A DNA stretch of 64,000 nucleotides from Convivina intestini (GTDB lineage: Bacteria; Bacillota; Bacilli; Lactobacillales; Lactobacillaceae). How positions within the stretch are numbered: the first letter of the stretch is position 1; each line of letters starts with the position of its first letter. Under the pieces are notes generated by a model that worked only from the letters and a program-made list of their open reading frames with translations, was not told where the DNA came from and did no database searches. The stretch spans positions 1-64,000 of the forward strand of contig NZ_QEKT01000002.1 of NCBI RefSeq assembly GCF_003096575.1. Direction: 5' to 3'. The translations under genes and the position numbers were made by a program. Of this stretch, positions 10,360-59,460 are shown in pieces.

Positions 10360-11367
10360 CTATCCTTTCACTTTTCCCTTGTGGTCAAAAATCACTGACA
10401 ACAATTGGTCATCGGTCACTGAACCAAAGTACTGGCCATCCCGATTTTCCGCTAATATCTGCTTTAAGGTCGCTGGGGTATAGGCTTGGCCGATAAAGGC
10501 ATCTTTGATATCACGCCAATCCCGGACCCCTAAGAAATCGCCCCGGAACTCAATGTCATCAATCTTACCCTGGTGAACATCAATGTAGACATCAACGCTA
10601 CCACCATCAAACTTTTCGTGGTTGTGGTAGGTAAATTCAGGGCTGTGGCCATAGTTCCACTCCCAAGTGGCAAACTTTTGATCACGCAAATCCAGAATCG
10701 ATTGCTTTTGTTCATCAGTTAGCTTATACTCGCCATCTTTGCCTTCATCGGTCAAATAGTAGCGCAGCAAATCCATGAACTTTTCAATGCTCATATTTTC
10801 TGGGGCGTAATTTCGAATATTACCGACTCGTGATCGAACCGACTTAGCCGCCTTAGAAATAAATTTTTCATCCGCAACATTCAAGGCGCGCACCATGGCA
10901 TCCACATCGGTATCCCACAGTAATGTGCCGTGATGCATCAAGTATCCCTTAACATAACGCTGGGCATTGCCCGAAACCTTCTTATCGTCAATGGTCAAGT
11001 CATTTCGACCGGAAATTTCGGTCTCAATACCAATCGACCGAAGGGCATCACACATTGGTTGCACAAACTTCTTAAAATCAACTTCGGCACTCGATTTAAC
11101 CGGTACAAAGAAGGTAAAACAGATATTACCCAAATCATGATAAACGGCACCACCACCAGAAACACGGCGGACAACCTGCACATCATGCTCATCAATGTAC
11201 TTTTGATTAATCTCGGCAAAAGTATTTTGGTTACGGCCAACAATCACTGCCCGTTTATTACGCCAGAGCGAAAAAACCGGCTCCGATAAATCCAAATTTT
11301 CTAATAACCAGGTGTCCATAGCAATGTTGGTATAGGCATCTGTTCCAAAATAATTAATGTACTGCAC
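10360..11367 (-). CDS. lplA: Lipoate-protein ligase, first gene of the pdh operon
   Basis: 335 residues from a GTG at 11367. This start is chosen because AAGGAGGA lies 5 bases upstream; an upstream in-frame ATG would place that ribosome site inside the coding region. The biotin/lipoate ligase fold shows RRVSGGGAVYHDLGN (lipoyl-AMP binding) and GRNDLTIDDKKVSGNAQ, and a C-terminal accessory domain follows. It activates free lipoate and attaches it to the E2 lipoyl lysine. It leads the transcript with pdhABCD. It is a close paralogue of the gene immediately upstream. Confidence 0.9.
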   Translation of the reverse strand: MQYINYFGTDAYTNIAMDTWLLENLDLSEPVFSLWRNKRAVIVGRNQNTFAEINQKYIDEHDVQVVRRVSGGGAVYHDLGNICFTFFVPVKSSAEVDFKKFVQPMCDALRSIGIETEISGRNDLTIDDKKVSGNAQRYVKGYLMHHGTLLWDTDVDAMVRALNVADEKFISKAAKSVRSRVGNIRNYAPENMSIEKFMDLLRYYLTDEGKDGEYKLTDEQKQSILDLRDQKFATWEWNYGHSPEFTYHNHEKFDGGSVDVYIDVHQGKIDDIEFRGDFLGVRDWRDIKDAFIGQAYTPATLKQILAENRDGQYFGSVTDDQLLSVIFDHKGKVKG

Positions 11368-11384
11368 GCTAATCCTCCTTCGCA

Positions 11385-11399
11385 TGTAAGCGTTCTCAT
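11385..11399 (-). promoter_or_regulatory. cre-like (CcpA) site before lplA-pdh operon
   Basis: The minus strand reads ATGAGAACGCTTACA, matching the cre consensus WTGNAARCGNWWWCA at all but one constrained position. It lies about 10 bases downstream of the -10 box, where CcpA binding would block transcription. It implies carbon-source control of pyruvate dehydrogenase. Confidence 0.6.
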
Positions 11400-11409
11400 C
11401 TCTGACTTA

Positions 11410-11415
11410 ATTATA
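11410..11415 (-). promoter_or_regulatory. -10 box of the lplA-pdh operon promoter
   Basis: The minus strand has a perfect TATAAT. The -35 region is poor (GGTTGA at 17 bases or TTGAAA at 15). The cre-like site follows. Confidence 0.5.
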
Positions 11416-11469
11416 ACGCCAAATAGCCCTTTTCAACCAAAAAATTAATCAGATTGTCCAAAAAATAAC

Positions 11470-11498
11470 AAAAAACATCCCCATTAATTTAGGAATGT
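11470..11498 (-). terminator. Intrinsic terminator overlapping the end of the second lplA
   Basis: On the minus strand ACATTCC pairs with GGGATGT around an 8-base loop and is followed by TTTTTTG. The left arm includes the last codons of the second lplA, so the two ligase genes appear to be separate transcripts. Confidence 0.6.
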
Positions 11499-12511
11499 TC
11501 TTGATTAATAATGGCATTTTGAGCTTGGTTAAAAATAACGGACAATAACTCGCCGTCGCTAATTGAACCGAAATATTGACCATCATGGTGGGCTTGTAAT
11601 AATTGCTCCAGGACAGCCGGACGGTACTCTTGACCGATAAATTCAGACTTGATATCACGCCAATCCCGAACGCCTAAGAAATCACCGCGAAATTCAATAT
11701 CACTAATTTTACCGGCTTCGACATTTAGATAGACATCAATACTACCGCCGGTAAATTTAGCGTGGTTATGGTAGGTAAATTCAGGACTATGCCCGTAATT
11801 CCAATCCCAGGTAGCAAATTTTTGGTTACGCAGGGCCATAATATCCGCTTTTTGATTGTCAGTTAACTGATACTCGCCATCTTTTCCCTGATCAGTCAGA
11901 TGGTAACGAAGTAATTCAATGAATTTGTCACTGGTTAAATCAGCTGGCGCATAATCTTTGATATTACCAACTCGAGCCCGCACCGATTTAGCCGCTTTGG
12001 AAATAAATTTTTCATCAGCCACATTTAGGGCCTGCACCATGGCGTCCACATCCGTATTCCACAATAAGGTTCCATGATGCAACAAATATCCCTTACTGTA
12101 GCGTTGGGCATTACCAGAAATTTTTTTACCATCAATGGTTAAATCATTACGACCGGAAATTTCGGTTTCAATACCAATCGACTGCAAGGCATCATACATC
12201 GGCCGGACAAATTTTTGAAAATCAACTTCAGCACTGGACTTTACCGGCACAAAAAAGGTAAAACAAATATTACCCAAATCATCATAAACAGCCCCACCAC
12301 CGGTCATGCGACGAACCACTTGGACATCATGGGCGTCAATGTAGGGTTGATTAACTTCGGCAAAAGTATTTTGATACTGGCCGACAATCACCGCCCGCTT
12401 ATTTTGCCACAGGGCAAAAACCGGTTCCGTGGGATGCAAATTATCTAAGAGCCAAGTATCCATAGCAATATTGGTGTAAGCATCAGTGCCAAAATAATTA
12501 ATGTACTGCAC
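11489..12511 (-). CDS. lplA: Lipoate-protein ligase, tandem paralogue
   Basis: 340 residues starting at GTG 12511, with AGGAGG 5 bases upstream. It is co-linear with the downstream ligase and clearly a tandem duplicate: long identical stretches, the same YINYFGTDAYTNIAMDTWLL opening, and the same RR-x-x-GGGAVY-D-LGN and NDLTIDGKKISGNAQ motifs. Differences are scattered, e.g. RRMTGGGAVYDD versus RRVSGGGAVYHD. It has its own promoter region and terminator. The paralogues may differ in acceptor (PDH E2 versus another lipoyl protein) or substrate; the sequence does not decide this. Confidence 0.88.
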   Translation of the reverse strand: MQYINYFGTDAYTNIAMDTWLLDNLHPTEPVFALWQNKRAVIVGQYQNTFAEVNQPYIDAHDVQVVRRMTGGGAVYDDLGNICFTFFVPVKSSAEVDFQKFVRPMYDALQSIGIETEISGRNDLTIDGKKISGNAQRYSKGYLLHHGTLLWNTDVDAMVQALNVADEKFISKAAKSVRARVGNIKDYAPADLTSDKFIELLRYHLTDQGKDGEYQLTDNQKADIMALRNQKFATWDWNYGHSPEFTYHNHAKFTGGSIDVYLNVEAGKISDIEFRGDFLGVRDWRDIKSEFIGQEYRPAVLEQLLQAHHDGQYFGSISDGELLSVIFNQAQNAIINQEHS

Positions 12512-45842: not shown

Positions 45843-46805
45843 TTAGTTACTGATTTTACGATCATGATTCTTCCACCAGGCTGCTAAAGTTGAACCAGAG
45901 ATATTATGCCAAACCGAGAAAATAACGGCTGGTAGCGCTGAAGCTGGTGAAAAATAAGAAATTGCTAAAGTAGAGGCCAAGGCTGAATCTTGCATCCCGA
46001 CTTCAAAAGTAATGGCCTTTTGTTGTGGTTCTTTCATTGATAACAAACGTGAAAAACCATAACCAAGGGCGTAACCAGATAAATTATGTAACATAACAAC
46101 GGGCACTAGTAGTAAGGCTGTGGCCGAAAAAATATTATGGGCATTGGCTGAAAAAACCGCGGTAATAATAACTAAAATAGCAAATTGTGAAATCAAGGGC
46201 ATTACTTGAACAATCTTTTCAACATGCTTTTTTAATAGGGTATGCACAATCAAGCCCAAAACAATCGGTACGACCACAATTTCTAAGGCTGAAAAGAACA
46301 TTTCTTGAAATGGTACTGCAACCCATTTACCAGCCAACAATTTTAATAGAGATGGCATCATAATTGGTGCCAACAAGGTTGATAGCAAACCAATTGATAC
46401 ATCTAAAGCGACATCCCCACCTGATAGAAAGGACATCACATTGGAAGAAGTCCCCGATGGGGCCGAACCAACTAAGATGACCCCCACGGCTGCCGCTCCG
46501 GTCAAACCAAACAAATGCACCAAGCCAAAGGCCACCAGCGGCATAATAACATAATGGGCAACTGTTCCTAGGATTACCATCTTTGGATTTTTAGCCACTT
46601 CTTTGAAATTATCCACTGACAGCGTTACCCCCATGCCAAACAGGATAATCATCAATAAAATTGATACGGCTGATAGATGGCCAATTTTTGTCGTTGCCAA
46701 GGTCACACCGGGCTTGGGGACAAAGTAGGCAAAAGCACAAACTGCCAGGATAATTACCACAAAATACTTCGTTATCCAGTTCGACAACTGGGTTAATATT
46801 TTCAT
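45843..46805 (-). CDS. Bile acid:sodium symporter family (BASS) carrier in the ilvD operon
   Basis: 320 residues with about nine to ten membrane helices. BASS-family marks are VLVGSAPSGTSSNVMSFLSGGDVALDVS and TFEVGMQDSALASTLAISYF. Despite the family name, bacterial and plant members carry organic acids: pyruvate, ketopantoate (PanS) and methionine-derived 2-keto acids. It lies 23 bases after the SufT-like gene, inside the attenuated ilvD transcript, so a branched-chain 2-keto acid or ketopantoate is a plausible substrate. This is inference from context. Confidence 0.82.
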   Translation of the reverse strand: MKILTQLSNWITKYFVVIILAVCAFAYFVPKPGVTLATTKIGHLSAVSILLMIILFGMGVTLSVDNFKEVAKNPKMVILGTVAHYVIMPLVAFGLVHLFGLTGAAAVGVILVGSAPSGTSSNVMSFLSGGDVALDVSIGLLSTLLAPIMMPSLLKLLAGKWVAVPFQEMFFSALEIVVVPIVLGLIVHTLLKKHVEKIVQVMPLISQFAILVIITAVFSANAHNIFSATALLLVPVVMLHNLSGYALGYGFSRLLSMKEPQQKAITFEVGMQDSALASTLAISYFSPASALPAVIFSVWHNISGSTLAAWWKNHDRKISN

Positions 46806-46828: not shown

Positions 46829-47140
46829 TTAATGTATTCCTAAGGCCATTTTGGCATAGCGACTCATGCGATCAATCGTCCATGCTGGTTCCCAAACCAA
46901 TTCGACCTTAACGTCTTTAACTTCTGGTAATTCTCGCAAACTTTTTTGAACCATTTGTTCGAGGACTTCCATGATGGGACAGCCCATCGTCGTCAAAGTC
47001 ATGGTGACCGTCACTATGCCATTTTCAAAGTTCAAACCATAAACCAGCCCTAAATTAACAATGTCACAGCGTAATTCCGGATCAATCACCTTTTCTAAAC
47101 AGGCCAACATCCGGTCTTGTAGGTCACCACTATCACTCAT
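46829..47140 (-). CDS. SufT/MIP18-type (DUF59) iron-sulfur protein maturation factor
   Basis: 103 residues of the MIP18/PaaD/SufT domain: VIDPELRCDIVNLGLVYGL, then TMTLTTMGCPIMEVLEQMV with the conserved Cys. Family members assist Fe-S cluster delivery. It starts 2 bases after the ilvD stop, and its ribosome site (GAGGAG) lies within the last ilvD codons. IlvD is itself an Fe-S dehydratase, so a role in loading its cluster is likely, though not shown by the sequence. Confidence 0.82.
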   Translation of the reverse strand: MSDSGDLQDRMLACLEKVIDPELRCDIVNLGLVYGLNFENGIVTVTMTLTTMGCPIMEVLEQMVQKSLRELPEVKDVKVELVWEPAWTIDRMSRYAKMALGIH

Positions 47141-47142
47141 TT

Positions 47143-48888
47143 TTAGTACTCCTCAAATAATTCATCCACATTCTTCATAACCGCACCAGTGTTGGCTGAC
47201 TTGACTAAGGCTTGATATCTCAGTAACCAGCCACTAGTGATTTTAGGTTTAAAGGGTTTAATGTGTTCTTTACGCCGATTCAATTCTTCATCCCCGACGT
47301 GTAGTTCAATCGTTCTTTCAGTCAAATCAATTGTAATTTTATCCCCATTTTGAATTAACCCGATTGGGCCACCGGCTGCCGCTTCAGGACTAACGTGGCC
47401 CACCGATATACCACGCGAGGCCCCTGAAAAACGACCATCCGTAATTAAGGCCACATCTTTTCCAAGGCCCATGCCCATAATAGAAGAAGTTGGTCCTAAC
47501 ATCTCCGGCATTCCAGGGCCTCCTTTAGGTCCTTCGTATCGGATAATGACAACGTCTCCGGCTTTAATTTGGCCATTATCAATGCCATGCACGGCTTCTT
47601 GTTCAGAATTATAAACTACGGCACTCCCGGTAAAGGTCTTAATGGATGAATCAACCCCACCAGACTTAATCACCGCCCCATTCGGTGCTAAATTACCATA
47701 TAGGATCGATAGTCCACCCTGCTTAGAATATGGATTCACATCATATCGCCGAATAATTTCATCATTCAAAATTGCATGACCGGCAACATTTTCTCGAATC
47801 GTTTTCCCAGTTACGGTCATTCGATCAGGGTGTAAGACGCCTCCCATCCGAATCAATTCATTCATAATCGCTGGTACCCCACCAGCCTGGTGGACATCTT
47901 CCATAGTCCAACTAGAAGATGGCGCAATTTTCGACAGGTAAGGAACTTTTTTGGCTATGTTATTAATGTCAGCCTGATCAAATTCAATCCCAGCCTCATG
48001 GGCAATGGCCAAAGTATGTAGAACTGTATTGGTTGAGCCACCCATAGCCATATCTAAGGCCATGGCATCGTCTAAGGCATCTTTAGTAACGATATCCAAA
48101 GGACGAACATTTTCCTTAACCATCCGCATCAATTGTTTAGCCCCTTCCCGGACCAAATCTTTGCGTTCTTCAGAAATAGCCAGAGCAGTGCCATTAAATG
48201 GCAAAGCCAAACCCATCATTTCCATCAAAGTATTCATCGAATTGGCGGTAAACATCCCAGCACAAGAACCACAAGTAGGGCAAACACTTTGTTCTAGCTT
48301 TAAAAATTCCTCTTTGTTCATCAAACCAGATTCAAAAGTACCAACTGCTTCAAACATAGTTGATAAGGTAGCCGCCTTACCATTTGCATCCAGCCCGGCT
48401 TTCATCGGTCCACCAGAAACAAAAACAGAAGGAATATTACAACGCAGTGACGCCATAATCATTCCCGGTGTGATTTTGTCACAGTTAGGCATGAAAAACA
48501 CACCGTCAAAACAATGAGCATTAATCACTGTTTCAGCTGAATCAGCAATCAATTCCCGGGATGGCAAGGAATAGCGCATGCCATCATGCCCCATGGCAAT
48601 CCCATCATCAACCCCAATCGTATTAAATTCAAAGGGAATCCCACCGGCGGCTCGAATTGCCTCTTTGGCCACATCGGCCAAAGCCCGTAGATGAACATGC
48701 CCCGGTACGATTTCAACATAGGAATTACAAACCGCAATAAAGGGTTTGTTCATGTCCTCTGGATTTTTAATTTGTCCCGTTGCATACAACAAAGATCGCG
48801 CTGGGGCCTGATGAGCCCCCAACTTAATTCGATCTGAACGTGATTTTAAATCCTCACTAGTGATATTAAACGAAAAATTATCTGCCAT
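47143..48888 (-). CDS. ilvD: Dihydroxy-acid dehydratase
   Basis: 581 residues from the ATG at 48888. The frame runs 41 codons further upstream but through the attenuator, so it is not coding there. IlvD/Edd motifs: [62 protein letters not shown] (cluster cysteines) and GGSTNTVLH. It makes the 2-keto acids of valine and isoleucine. The only good ribosome site (GAGGAG) is 28 bases upstream, with a small GGTGT/ACACC hairpin between. Controlled by the leader-peptide attenuator upstream. Confidence 0.95.
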
Positions 48889-49060
48889 AGTTTTCTTGGT
48901 GTATGGGATTACACCGCTCCTCTCTTTTCGAATCCCAATGGTATCGGTTCCGTTAATTGATTTAGTTTCCCTACGCCCTCCCACGCATTTCTTACAACAA
49001 AAAATCCCCAACAGTTCAACAAAACTGTGGGGATTTCAGAAATAAACACACAAGTATGTC
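48889..49060 (-). promoter_or_regulatory. ilvD attenuator: terminator and antiterminator
   Basis: On the minus strand, arms AAATCCCCACAGTT and AACTGTTGGGGATTT (49023-49036 and 49002-49016 region; one bulge) are followed by TTTTTT at 48997-49003: an intrinsic terminator between leader peptide and ilvD. The 5' arm ATCCCCACAG (49025-49034) can instead pair 9 of 10 with CTGTGTGGAT (49067-49076), which encodes leader codons 19-22. The two structures are mutually exclusive. Confidence 0.8.
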
Positions 49061-49132
49061 CTAATTATCCACACAGAATCGCTGCAAAATAACGACTAGA
49101 ATGACGATAATCAAGACAATGAGCACTTGCAT
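49061..49132 (-). CDS. Ile/Val/Leu-rich leader peptide of the ilvD operon
   Basis: A 23-codon ORF, ATG at 49132 and TAG at 49061, with a perfect AGGAGG 8 bases upstream. Residues 2-16 read QVLIVLIIVILVVIL: the whole peptide has 5 Ile, 6 Val and 4 Leu among 23. It precedes an intrinsic terminator and then ilvD, the classical layout of ribosome-mediated attenuation. Ribosome stalling at Ile/Val/Leu codons would leave 49067-49076 free to form the antiterminator; a ribosome reaching the stop would cover it. The codons and structures are seen; the mechanism is inferred. Confidence 0.85.
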   Translation of the reverse strand: MQVLIVLIIVILVVILQRFCVDN

Positions 49133-49189
49133 AGTTATTTCCTCCTAAATTTATACATTCTTCACATATCGGCGATTGCCAATGACACT

Positions 49190-49218
49190 AATTTACTCAA
49201 TTATGAGCAAAATGTCAA
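49190..49218 (-). promoter_or_regulatory. Promoter of the ilvD leader/operon
   Basis: Minus-strand -35 TTGACA (49213-49218) and -10 TAAATT (49190-49195), spacing 17. It gives a transcript with about 50 bases before the leader ATG. Confidence 0.75.
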
Positions 49219-49511: not shown

Positions 49512-51239
49512 ATGAAGGATAAACAAGAGAAAAATATATCAAAGTCAGTCCACCAAAGTGGTCCAGAAATATTAGTTCAAACTCTTCAAGATGAAAAAGT
49601 TGATTTTGTTTTTGGCTATCCGGGTGGCTCTGTGCTATCTATCTTTGATGCTTTCTACACAGCTGGCATTCAAAATATTCTACCCCGCCATGAACAAGGT
49701 GGCATTCATGCTGCTGAAGGTTATGCTAAGGCCAGCGGAAAAACCGGGGTTGTCTGTGTCACTAGTGGTCCGGGCATTGCTAATACTGTTACTGGTTTAG
49801 CAGACGCCATGCTAGATTCAGTTCCCCTAGTTGTCTTAAGTGGTCAGGTAGGAACCGATTTAATCGGCACCAATGCCTTTCAAGAATTAGATACGCTGAG
49901 TATGACCAAGTCAATTACTAAAGGAACATTTCAAGTAGACCATTTATCTGATTTGGAACCGGTACTTAAAAAAGCCTTTGCTTTGGCCCAAACTGGCCGG
50001 AAAGGTCCGGTGGTTGTTGACCTGCCAAAAGATGTCATGGCACCGGGTTTAAGTAATCAAAATGAAGCTAAAACCACTTTTTCTTCTAATAAAGAAGAAA
50101 GTTCCACCTTAACCGTTAATCAACTCACCCAACTAACTGCTATCGCAACGGCTTTGCAGCAAGCAAAGAAGCCCTTGCTTTTGGTTGGCGGCGGGGTGAT
50201 GGCAGCCCATGCCAGTCATTTAGCCCAAGAATTTGCCCATCAATATTTTTTACCAGCAGTGAGTACCTTAATGGGATTAGGCACTTTTCAAAAGGACGAC
50301 CCCCTATACATCGGAATGGTGGGGATGCATGGCGCCTATGCTGCTAATATGGCTTTACATGAATGTGACTTTCTATTAAATATTGGTTCCCGCTTTGACG
50401 ATCGAGTAGCTCTTTCACCGGATAAGTTTGCGCCACAAGCAAAGATTGCCCATATTGATATCGATGCAAATGAAATCGGCAAAATTATTCCAGTTGATTA
50501 TCCATTGATTGCTGACGCTAAAACCGCCTTAACCGCCCTACTAAAAATTGATACTCAGCCTACCAAACATCAAACTTGGTTACAAACCTTGGCTGAACGG
50601 CAAAGCCAACAATCCTATCCCTATCAGCCCAGCGACACTGATATTAAACCGCAAACTGTCGTTAAAAAAATTGGCCAATTAACTAAGGGTCAAGCCTATG
50701 TGGTAACAGATGTTGGTCAACATCAAATGTGGGCTGCTCAATTTTATCCCTTTAATCGCTCCAACCAATTAATCACATCTGGCGGCTTAGGCACGATGGG
50801 CTTTGGGATTCCAGCCGCAATTGGCGCTCGGTTGGCTGATGCTAACCATCCCGTCGTACTGTTTGTTGGAGATGGTGGTTTCCAAATGACCAGTGAAGAA
50901 CTAGAAGTTATCGGGGAGCGACAATTGGATATTAAAATTGTGCTCTTTAATAATCAGCGCTTGGGCATGGTACGGCAATGGCAAGACCAACTTTTTGAAC
51001 AAAGACGAGCTGAAACTGTCTTTGATCACCAACCGGATTTTGGCCAATTAGCCCAAGCATATGATATAAACTATGCCAATTTAAATGAACGTAGCCAGGT
51101 CATGGAAGAATTAAGTGCAGTATTTAATCAAACTGGCCCAATCATCATTGAAATTCCAATTCCAAGTGATGAAGCGGTCTCCCCCATGATTCTACCTGGT
51201 AAGGGTAATAACGAGATGTTGGGACTAAACCCGATGTGA
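49512..51239 (+). CDS. ilvB: Acetolactate synthase large subunit
   Basis: 575 residues from the ATG at 49512 (AAAGG 9 bases upstream; a TTG two codons earlier is less likely). Thiamine-diphosphate enzyme: catalytic Glu in ILPRHEQGGIHAAEGYAKAS-type segment (RHEQGG), central FAD-type domain, and GDGGFQMTSEELEVIGERQL with FNNQRLGMV. It makes acetolactate and acetohydroxybutyrate, the first common step of valine and isoleucine synthesis. Unusually, no ilvN regulatory subunit gene follows; ilvC comes next after a structured 129-base gap. Confidence 0.93.
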   Translation: MKDKQEKNISKSVHQSGPEILVQTLQDEKVDFVFGYPGGSVLSIFDAFYTAGIQNILPRHEQGGIHAAEGYAKASGKTGVVCVTSGPGIANTVTGLADAMLDSVPLVVLSGQVGTDLIGTNAFQELDTLSMTKSITKGTFQVDHLSDLEPVLKKAFALAQTGRKGPVVVDLPKDVMAPGLSNQNEAKTTFSSNKEESSTLTVNQLTQLTAIATALQQAKKPLLLVGGGVMAAHASHLAQEFAHQYFLPAVSTLMGLGTFQKDDPLYIGMVGMHGAYAANMALHECDFLLNIGSRFDDRVALSPDKFAPQAKIAHIDIDANEIGKIIPVDYPLIADAKTALTALLKIDTQPTKHQTWLQTLAERQSQQSYPYQPSDTDIKPQTVVKKIGQLTKGQAYVVTDVGQHQMWAAQFYPFNRSNQLITSGGLGTMGFGIPAAIGARLADANHPVVLFVGDGGFQMTSEELEVIGERQLDIKIVLFNNQRLGMVRQWQDQLFEQRRAETVFDHQPDFGQLAQAYDINYANLNERSQVMEELSAVFNQTGPIIIEIPIPSDEAVSPMILPGKGNNEMLGLNPM

Positions 51240-57992: not shown

Positions 57993-59123
57993 CTAATCCG
58001 ACCAAACTTTCTTAGCGGTATCAACTACCAATTGAATCTTACGCCATTGTTGAGCTTCCGTTAAATGATTACCCTCATCGGTTGAGGCAAAACCACATTG
58101 AGTACTTAACGAAAGATTTTCCAAAGGTAGATATTGGCTGGCTTCTTTAATCCGATTAGCTAAATTAACTGGATTCTCCAACTCTGGACTTTTAGAAGTT
58201 ACCAAACCCAAAACAACTTCCTTTCCTGACGGCACCTCTTGTAACGGTTGAAAATCACCGGAACGAGCATCATCAAATTCAAGATAAAAGGCATCGACTT
58301 TTTCTTTACCAAAAATTGTTTTAGCAACGGCCTCATAACCACCAGCTGAAGCCCAATCAGAAGCATAATTACCCCGGCAGATATGTGTGCTCAAATGTAA
58401 ATCTTCCGGCAAGTCAGCCAAAGCTCGGTTATTAAAGGCTAAATACTTATCTTGAATTTTTTGAATATCATCAACATCATAGCCCATCTTTTCCCAAACA
58501 CTACGGTCAACTAGCATTCCCCAGGTACAGTCATCCAGCTTCAAATCCCGGCAACCGGCATCATATAAGGCTAAAATCAAATCATGATAGGCTTTTCCTA
58601 AATCATCTAACAATTCTTCATCGTTGGCGTAATATTGATGTAAGGCCTTTAAATTAGCCTGTCCACGAACCAATTCAGCGTAACACTGAGCTGGGGATGG
58701 AATGCTCTGCCGAGGAATTACATCTAGATCCTTGGTGATTTGATATAAATATTGAAAGGCCTTTAAATCACAGTGGTCTTTGGTAAAACTAATTTTGCCA
58801 CAAACCTGAGCAGATTCGCGCCGGGTTTCAACATTATGAAAGAGATATCCTTGATTAATTTCGGTTTTCTTAATACCAGCAAAGCTCCAAAAAGTATCTA
58901 AATGCCACCAACTTCTTCTAAACTCCCCATCAGTCACAAATTTCAAGCCAGCTGCGACTTCTTTTGCCACTAACTTTTGGATTTCTTGATCTTGGATTTT
59001 AGTAAATTCCGCCAAACTAAGCGTACCTTTTTCAAAATCCTGCCGAGCTCGATGTAAAATTTCCGGCCTCAAAAAACTCCCAACAATATCATAATGAACA
59101 ACTTGATCCTTAAACTTTGGCAT
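57993..59123 (-). CDS. MetE-like methionine synthase family protein (YxjG/YxjH type)
   Basis: 376 residues, corresponding to the catalytic C-terminal half of cobalamin-independent methionine synthase. The opening VGSFLRPEILHRARQDF, GLKFVTDGEFRRSWWHLDTF, CRGNY (zinc-type Cys in HICRGNYAS), and the C-terminal STQCGFASTDEGN are the YxjG/H family marks. It is expected to methylate homocysteine to methionine, possibly from a methyl donor other than folate polyglutamate. The ribosome site GGGGAG is near the ATG. A T-box leader controls it. Confidence 0.85.
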   Translation of the reverse strand: MPKFKDQVVHYDIVGSFLRPEILHRARQDFEKGTLSLAEFTKIQDQEIQKLVAKEVAAGLKFVTDGEFRRSWWHLDTFWSFAGIKKTEINQGYLFHNVETRRESAQVCGKISFTKDHCDLKAFQYLYQITKDLDVIPRQSIPSPAQCYAELVRGQANLKALHQYYANDEELLDDLGKAYHDLILALYDAGCRDLKLDDCTWGMLVDRSVWEKMGYDVDDIQKIQDKYLAFNNRALADLPEDLHLSTHICRGNYASDWASAGGYEAVAKTIFGKEKVDAFYLEFDDARSGDFQPLQEVPSGKEVVLGLVTSKSPELENPVNLANRIKEASQYLPLENLSLSTQCGFASTDEGNHLTEAQQWRKIQLVVDTAKKVWSD

Positions 59124-59158: not shown

Positions 59159-59460
59159 AAAAAAGCCCCTAAGTTACAGTTATCCTGCAACCTAGGGGCG
59201 CTTAAACAAGCGCGGTACCACCCACATTTATCGACCTATTGTCGAGCTCAAATTAGTACACTCGTGCTAGCTATACTAAAATACTGTATCGTGTATTAAC
59301 CGTAATTGGCTTATTCAGCAGAACTCACCAATTAAAGACCACTCCAAGACCATCTTCATTGATAAACAAGACCCCGCCTCTCAGCTAGTACGGTTTTCTG
59401 TAGAATTGTTAGATCAACTACTCATCTCTTCTTTGTAGTTAAGTTTCATATTTCGTTGCT
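59159..59460 (-). promoter_or_regulatory. T-box riboswitch, probably tRNA-Met
   Basis: On the minus strand the leader of the metE-like gene carries the T-box sequence TGGGTGGTACCGCG (59212-59225), a stem I region with an AAGAAGAGATGAGTAG segment, and a terminator (59160-59200, stem GCCCCTAGGTTGCAG / CTGTAACTTAGGGGC, then seven Ts). Uncharged tRNA would stabilise the antiterminator. The specifier is assumed to be ATG from the gene function; several ATG triplets fall in stem I and I could not fix it by eye. Confidence 0.88.

Follow-up and report, generated by a model that had tools for sequence, protein, structure and literature searches.

Organization of the ilvD leader region

In the window (the whole 64-kb stretch of DNA that was analyzed), the region that separates the divergent genes ilvB and ilvD carries on its minus strand, in this order, a putative promoter, a Shine-Dalgarno sequence (SD), an open reading frame (ORF) of 23 codons, an intrinsic terminator and ilvD (Table 1). 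An earlier note on this DNA had described this arrangement, including an ORF driven by AGGAGG, and reading of the minus strand shows the description to be exact to the base.

Table 1. Features of the ilvD branch and its leader, listed in the direction of transcription
Feature	Position	Strand	Basis
Putative sigma-70-type promoter, TTGACA-17-TAAATT	49190..49218	-	sequence and consensus scan
Shine-Dalgarno sequence of leader ORF, AGGAGG	49141..49146	-	sequence
Leader ORF, MQVLIVLIIVILVVILQRFCVDN*, 23 codons	49061..49132	-	sequence
Segment 1, codons 5-9; partner of segment 2 if the leader is ribosome-free	49106..49116	-	minimum-energy folds
Segment 2 (antiterminator arm), codons 19-22	49067..49076	-	pairs with terminator 5' arm
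Intrinsic terminator (segments 3 and 4), short U-rich tail	49001..49037	-	dG -20.4 kcal/mol
ilvD (dihydroxy-acid dehydratase), first gene after the probable attenuator	47143..48888	-	Pfam PF00920, PF24877
Gene of the iron-sulfur cluster assembly protein family, next after ilvD	46829..47140	-	PF01883
Sodium bile acid symporter-family transporter gene	45843..46805	-	PF01758

The two promoter hexamers (49218-49213 and 49195-49190, 17 nt apart) match the consensus at 10 of 12 positions, and transcription is predicted to start near 49183. A promoter match of this kind is by itself at chance level in the consensus scan, with 4 found versus 4.7 expected. No promoter reaching threshold was detected in the same scan between the terminator and ilvD.

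The leader ORF begins with an ATG at 49132-49130 and ends with a TAG at 49063-49061. Codons 3-16, and thus 14 of the 23, form a single uninterrupted run that specifies Ile (5 codons), Val (5) and Leu (4). This run is the longest of its kind across the six frames of the 64-kb window, where the next extends over 10 codons, and the ORF ranks first in Ile, Val and Leu content among 14 small SD-led ORFs; no comparable ORF was found elsewhere in the window. Translation of the leader is presumed. The near-even mix of the three kinds of codon suits an enzyme required for the synthesis of all three amino acids.

The ORF stop codon is separated from the terminator by 23 nt. The leader folds 3.3 standard deviations below shuffled sequences (z = -3.3), and an 86-nt region containing the terminator folds 3.9 standard deviations below shuffles. 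Further downstream (48887-48925, minus strand), the SD-like sequence GAGAGGAG of ilvD lies ~30 nt before the ATG, at a site where the spacing in Leuconostoc is normal, and a small hairpin, GGUGU-AAUCCCAU-ACACC, occupies the interval between them. A start codon bridged to its SD by the hairpin, or an additional layer of translational control, is possible.

The ilvD gene is 80-82% identical to Leuconostoc-type copies, which are its closest relatives. By similarity, the family of this genome includes ilvD copies like those of Leuconostoc, Companilactobacillus and Liquorilactobacillus, and on this ground the genome is referred to the Lactobacillaceae. The iron-sulfur assembly gene and the symporter-family gene are likely members of the ilvD operon, and by eye the same three kinds of gene occur in the same order in Leuconostoc carnosum (locus L065). 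The divergent branch comprises ilvB, ilvC, an ABC ATPase gene and ilvA. No SD-led ORF rich in Ile, Val and Leu codons was found upstream of ilvB, and thus the attenuator appears only on the ilvD branch, the one with an enzyme needed for all three amino acids. The ilvB gene (49512-51239, plus strand) is only ~51% identical to Leuconostoc ilvB, versus 82% for ilvD, and there is no ilvN-like gene between ilvB and ilvC. As judged from these sequences, the divergent branch may be of other origin.

Predicted switching of the leader RNA

The earlier note had also pointed to pairing between codons 19-22 of the ORF and the 5' arm of the terminator. This pairing is present: positions 49076-49067 and 49034-49025 form 9 of 10 pairs with one mismatch, at a predicted free energy of -11.8 kcal/mol. 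When the stretch between the ORF start and the terminator was subjected to dinucleotide shuffling, only 0.6% of 2000 shuffled versions matched this duplex (P = 0.006; mean -6.1, sd 1.8). In addition, folding of the leader reveals that codons 5-9 can pair with the stretch from codon 20 to the stop codon, such that all four classical segments are present. What had been taken for a minimal switch is thus better described as a classical four-segment design with its own segment 1.

We simulated the passage of a ribosome by folding the nascent RNA ahead of the ribosome at each codon, with the transcript ending before the 3' arm of the terminator. The probability of antiterminator formation is 0.98 when the A site is at codons 3-15, falls to 0.73 at codon 16, and is 0 from codon 18 on. 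It is likewise 0 when no ribosome is present. The effective stalls therefore span codons 3-16, and this range is the Ile/Val/Leu run itself. The range is robust for footprint edges of 10-17 nt, its two limits moving by no more than one or two codons. A synonymous change of codons 19-22 made in silico abolishes the antiterminator. The switch by ribosome position that the earlier note had envisaged is thus supported in simulation, where a stalled ribosome leaves segment 2 free and a ribosome at the stop codon covers it. Once the whole terminator has been transcribed, equilibrium folding favors the terminator in every ribosome state. Since the terminator wins at equilibrium wherever the ribosome stands, the switch can only be kinetic and must operate during transcription.

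The leader is very probably a ribosome-mediated, four-segment transcription attenuator that controls ilvD and probably also the two genes behind it. Beyond its anatomy and the simulations, this reading is favored by the absence of CodY and of a T-box at ilvD, by the lack of a second promoter behind the terminator, by the Leu-rich leader ORF of leuABCD, by a similar range of effective stalls at locus L053 and by the frequency of leader-peptide attenuators before ilvD in the Lactobacillales. The negative search for a homologous leader in 396 other genomes of the family, the leaderless ilvD loci of the nearest relatives, the equilibrium advantage of the terminator and the mismatch in the antiterminator count against it. 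RNA polymerase would start near the predicted site, followed by a ribosome translating the 23-codon ORF. A shortage of Ile, Val or Leu would stall the ribosome within codons 3-16 and break the stem formed by segments 1 and 2. Codons 19-22 would then be free to capture the emerging 5' arm of the terminator, and RNA polymerase would continue into ilvD. When all three amino acids are plentiful, the ribosome would reach the stop codon and cover segment 2, and the terminator would form. With no ribosome on the leader, the 1:2 stem and the terminator would form together and produce basal termination, and folding of the ribosome-free leader indeed predicts termination. We infer both the response to amino acids and the kinetic nature of the switch from this arrangement.

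It is also conceivable that the ORF encodes a small hydrophobic membrane peptide with a job of its own, for instance a small membrane protein or a type I toxin of the Ibs kind, with a terminator that merely ends its transcript and with ilvD expressed from elsewhere. Uninterrupted stretches of Ile, Val and Leu are also typical of small membrane peptides such as the Ibs toxins, and the stretch in this ORF resembles them. The only Pfam match of the peptide is insignificant (PsbH, E = 0.58). We nonetheless consider this reading highly improbable. It leaves unexplained the position of the ORF before ilvD, the antiterminator pairing at P = 0.006, and the fact that the effective stalls fall on the Ile/Val/Leu codons. 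Moreover, no promoter-like site lies between the terminator and ilvD, and none over threshold was detected on the plus strand across the ORF from which an antisense RNA could arise, although a consensus scan is weak evidence on this point.

Slightly less probable still is control of the leader and terminator by a trans-acting factor, a riboswitch or a T-box-like tRNA sensor and not by the position of a ribosome. Sensing of tRNA is a common strategy in this genome (~1.6 Mb, 98.9% complete), which contains 27 T-box matches. However, covariance-model searches detected no T-box (RF00230) upstream of ilvD between 48 and 50 kb of the window and no match to any Rfam family over the leader region, and we therefore rejected T-box or Rfam riboswitch control of ilvD. 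The segment of ~23 nt between the ORF and the terminator is also too short for an aptamer or a T-box. Control by CodY was ruled out as well, since no match to PF06018 was found in this genome; nor was one found in nine other Lactobacillaceae genomes, whereas the controls and a genome from another family were positive. Elsewhere in the window, a T-box match below threshold (77.9 bits; 59191-59442, minus strand) lies upstream of a methionine-synthase-like gene (57993-59123), and two adjacent, very similar lipoate-protein-ligase-like genes (10360-12511, minus strand) appear by eye to be a tandem duplication.

A decayed element, or a chance assembly of pieces that no longer regulate, is the least probable of these explanations. 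A DNA search of 396 other genomes of the family returned only short, weak matches and no homologous leader, and the promoter taken alone does not exceed chance expectation. Against this stand the joint presence of the SD, the 14-codon run, a terminator of -20.4 kcal/mol and an antiterminator at P = 0.006, the z of -3.3 for the leader fold, and the position of the whole before the first common gene for Ile, Val and Leu synthesis.

Leaders and regulators at related loci

In the same genome, the leuABCD operon is preceded by a Leu-rich leader ORF of its own, MQNTQKNIIINQSSALLSLLRYS, with an AGGAGG and a terminator of 13 pairs (L217, 5897-5826, minus strand; G000:C2 near 253396). In a sister species (L218, 5780-5851, plus strand), the Leu codons, the stop codon and the terminator are nearly identical. 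Each of the 30 leuA loci that were read in the family has an SD-led, Leu-containing ORF between about -245 and -120; among the seven of these loci that were scanned, no Rfam leader family was found except for one T-box match (L251). Folding of the leu leader in the ribosome scan gives a peak at paired CUC codons and no clean switch. By its anatomy alone, this region may be a second attenuator-like leader.

The region upstream of ilvD is organized differently in the nearest relatives examined. No leader was found at ilvD in the Leuconostoc-type loci L017-L021, L023, L065 and L066, nor in the g2 locus L022. In L. carnosum, a divergent regulator-like gene (L065, 2772-3611, minus strand), which by eye begins with a helix-turn-helix, lies upstream of ilvD, and two further genomes of the Leuconostoc type have matches to it at the corresponding position. 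The g2 genome has one interrupted copy; no match was found in the present genome or in the sister species. Inverted repeats, GTCTACTAA...TTAGTAGAC, lie between ilvD and the divergent regulator-like gene in Leuconostoc. From these gene arrangements, the presence of a regulator gene in Leuconostoc and of a leader here likely represents a swap of control. The earlier note had regarded relatives that lack the ORF as evidence against an attenuator. Leuconostoc-type genomes do lack it, but the element here is not thereby refuted, because both the upstream region and the regulator differ in those genomes; what the lack records is a gain or loss specific to a lineage.

Elsewhere in the Lactobacillales, ilvD is commonly preceded by a leader ORF, and at least three leader architectures occur across the order. 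Rli60-like leaders with conserved motifs behind the stop codon occur in other families, with peptides such as MKTTKSVITILLL in the Rli60-matching locus L171 and MKKTNNNHVLVIILSCRT. A second type, MKTTNALLLLQIIVLVVIIII, occurs in genera g12, g13 and g29 of this family, and compact leaders are found in the present genome and at locus L053. Leaders of the Rli60 type were seen at L003-L011, L013, L124-L174 and L177, and weakly in Sporolactobacillus (L071); among the loci scanned, those at L006 and L130 score below the threshold of Rfam RF02414. The alignment of Rli60-type leaders permits a hairpin at the stop codon, AGGACUUAG:GAGUCC, with 94% of cells paired, and also an AUGGGAU:AUCCCAU antiterminator together with a terminator. 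These leaders are possibly five-segment cascades.

Comparison with known attenuators

The earlier note knew of no attenuation described for this operon layout. Ribosome-mediated attenuators directly before ilvD have in fact been published, and leader-peptide attenuation has experimental support both in Staphylococcus aureus (PMC5794164) and, as Rli60, in Listeria monocytogenes (PMC5864092). It has further been predicted for Lactococcus, Corynebacterium and Streptococcus, and the mechanism has been called common in Gram-positive bacteria (PMC6123439). We found no publication on attenuation in the present lineage. Thus, the mechanism was already known before ilvD, and what is new is a compact copy, embedded in the ORF, that is absent from the nearest relatives examined.

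The leucine-rich S. aureus attenuator likewise has Ile and Leu codons in its leader peptide (26 aa), a terminator and ilvD as the first gene. It differs in that the terminator lies 52 nt after the stop codon and the antiterminator is arranged differently (PMC5794164). CodY acts on the same promoter in S. aureus, whereas no CodY gene was found here.

Rli60 (RF02414) similarly combines a short leader peptide rich in branched-chain amino acids with a terminator before ilvD and is ribosome-mediated. Rli60-like leaders have an ORF of 13-24 codons, a AGGACUUAG...GAGUCC hairpin at the stop codon and an AUGGGAU arm. Their terminator, in most cases of the GCAUCCC type, lies some 60-75 nt past the stop, as opposed to 23 nt here. 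Unlike in those leaders, the antiterminator arm of the present element lies inside the ORF. No RF02414 match was obtained on L184 at E up to 0.1, compared with 179.6 bits for the Listeria-type locus L171. Our extended Rli60 covariance model (R1) yielded 13 bits and an E of 0.037 in 1.2 kb, whereas a 220-kb search with it returned no hit for L001 at E up to 1. The motifs AGGACUUAG/GAGUCC, AUGGGAU and GCAUCCC do not follow the ORF in order. Only UAGGACAUA at the stop codon resembles the first of them, in the form UAGGACUUA of Rli60-type leaders; the model search gives this likeness no significant support, and both the pairing partner and the terminator motif of the Rli60 type are absent. Membership in the Rli60 family was rejected on the combined results of RF02414, our own model and the missing motifs. 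A GGGAUUC...AUCCCAU pair immediately ahead of the start of ilvD was considered as a relic of an Rli60-type antiterminator, and the model search does not favor it.

A counterpart in design within the Lactobacillaceae is locus L053 (G118), where an SD-led ORF likewise contains an internal Ile/Val run with the antiterminator arm behind the run inside the ORF. The terminator there lies 15 nt after the stop codon, and neither the peptide nor the RNA is related in sequence to the present leader. In the ribosome scan, the effective stalls at L053 fall on codons 12-18 (AVIILVI, in the reading frame of the run).

We tentatively propose, as a possibility that falls short of an even chance, that a four-segment attenuator for Ile, Val and Leu, with no sequence kinship to the Rli60 type, arose afresh before ilvD in a lineage without CodY, where it replaced the divergent regulator gene of the Leuconostoc type, and that L053 represents a parallel origin. 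If true, the same switch would have evolved repeatedly and convergently at the same gene. Alternatively, the leader may have diverged beyond recognition from an ancestral one. The attenuator would add a lineage that is related to Leuconostoc and lacks CodY to those in which ribosomes control the synthesis of branched-chain amino acids, and it offers a clean case for the origin of attenuators, with the same gene, close relatives under different control and several leader architectures in one order. Since the stalls predicted by folding coincide with the regulatory codons, each codon of the run offers a sharp test of the model. In practical work with lactic acid bacteria, the model predicts when the synthesis of branched-chain amino acids and of 2-keto acids, which are flavor precursors, is switched on.

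Enterobacterial attenuators of the ilvGMEDA, leu and trp operons consist of four segments, of which the second is covered by a ribosome at the stop codon, and control of ilv is multivalent, responding to Ile, Val and Leu. The present element has in common with them the four segments, the covering of segment 2 and the predicted multivalent control. It differs in its shorter leader, its uninterrupted 14-codon run and its Gram-positive host, and we claim no relation in sequence; the E. coli ilvGMEDA leader, for comparison, has 32 aa with 15 branched-chain residues (PMC6123439). In its compact design, the ilvD leader resembles the enterobacterial attenuators more than it does Rli60.
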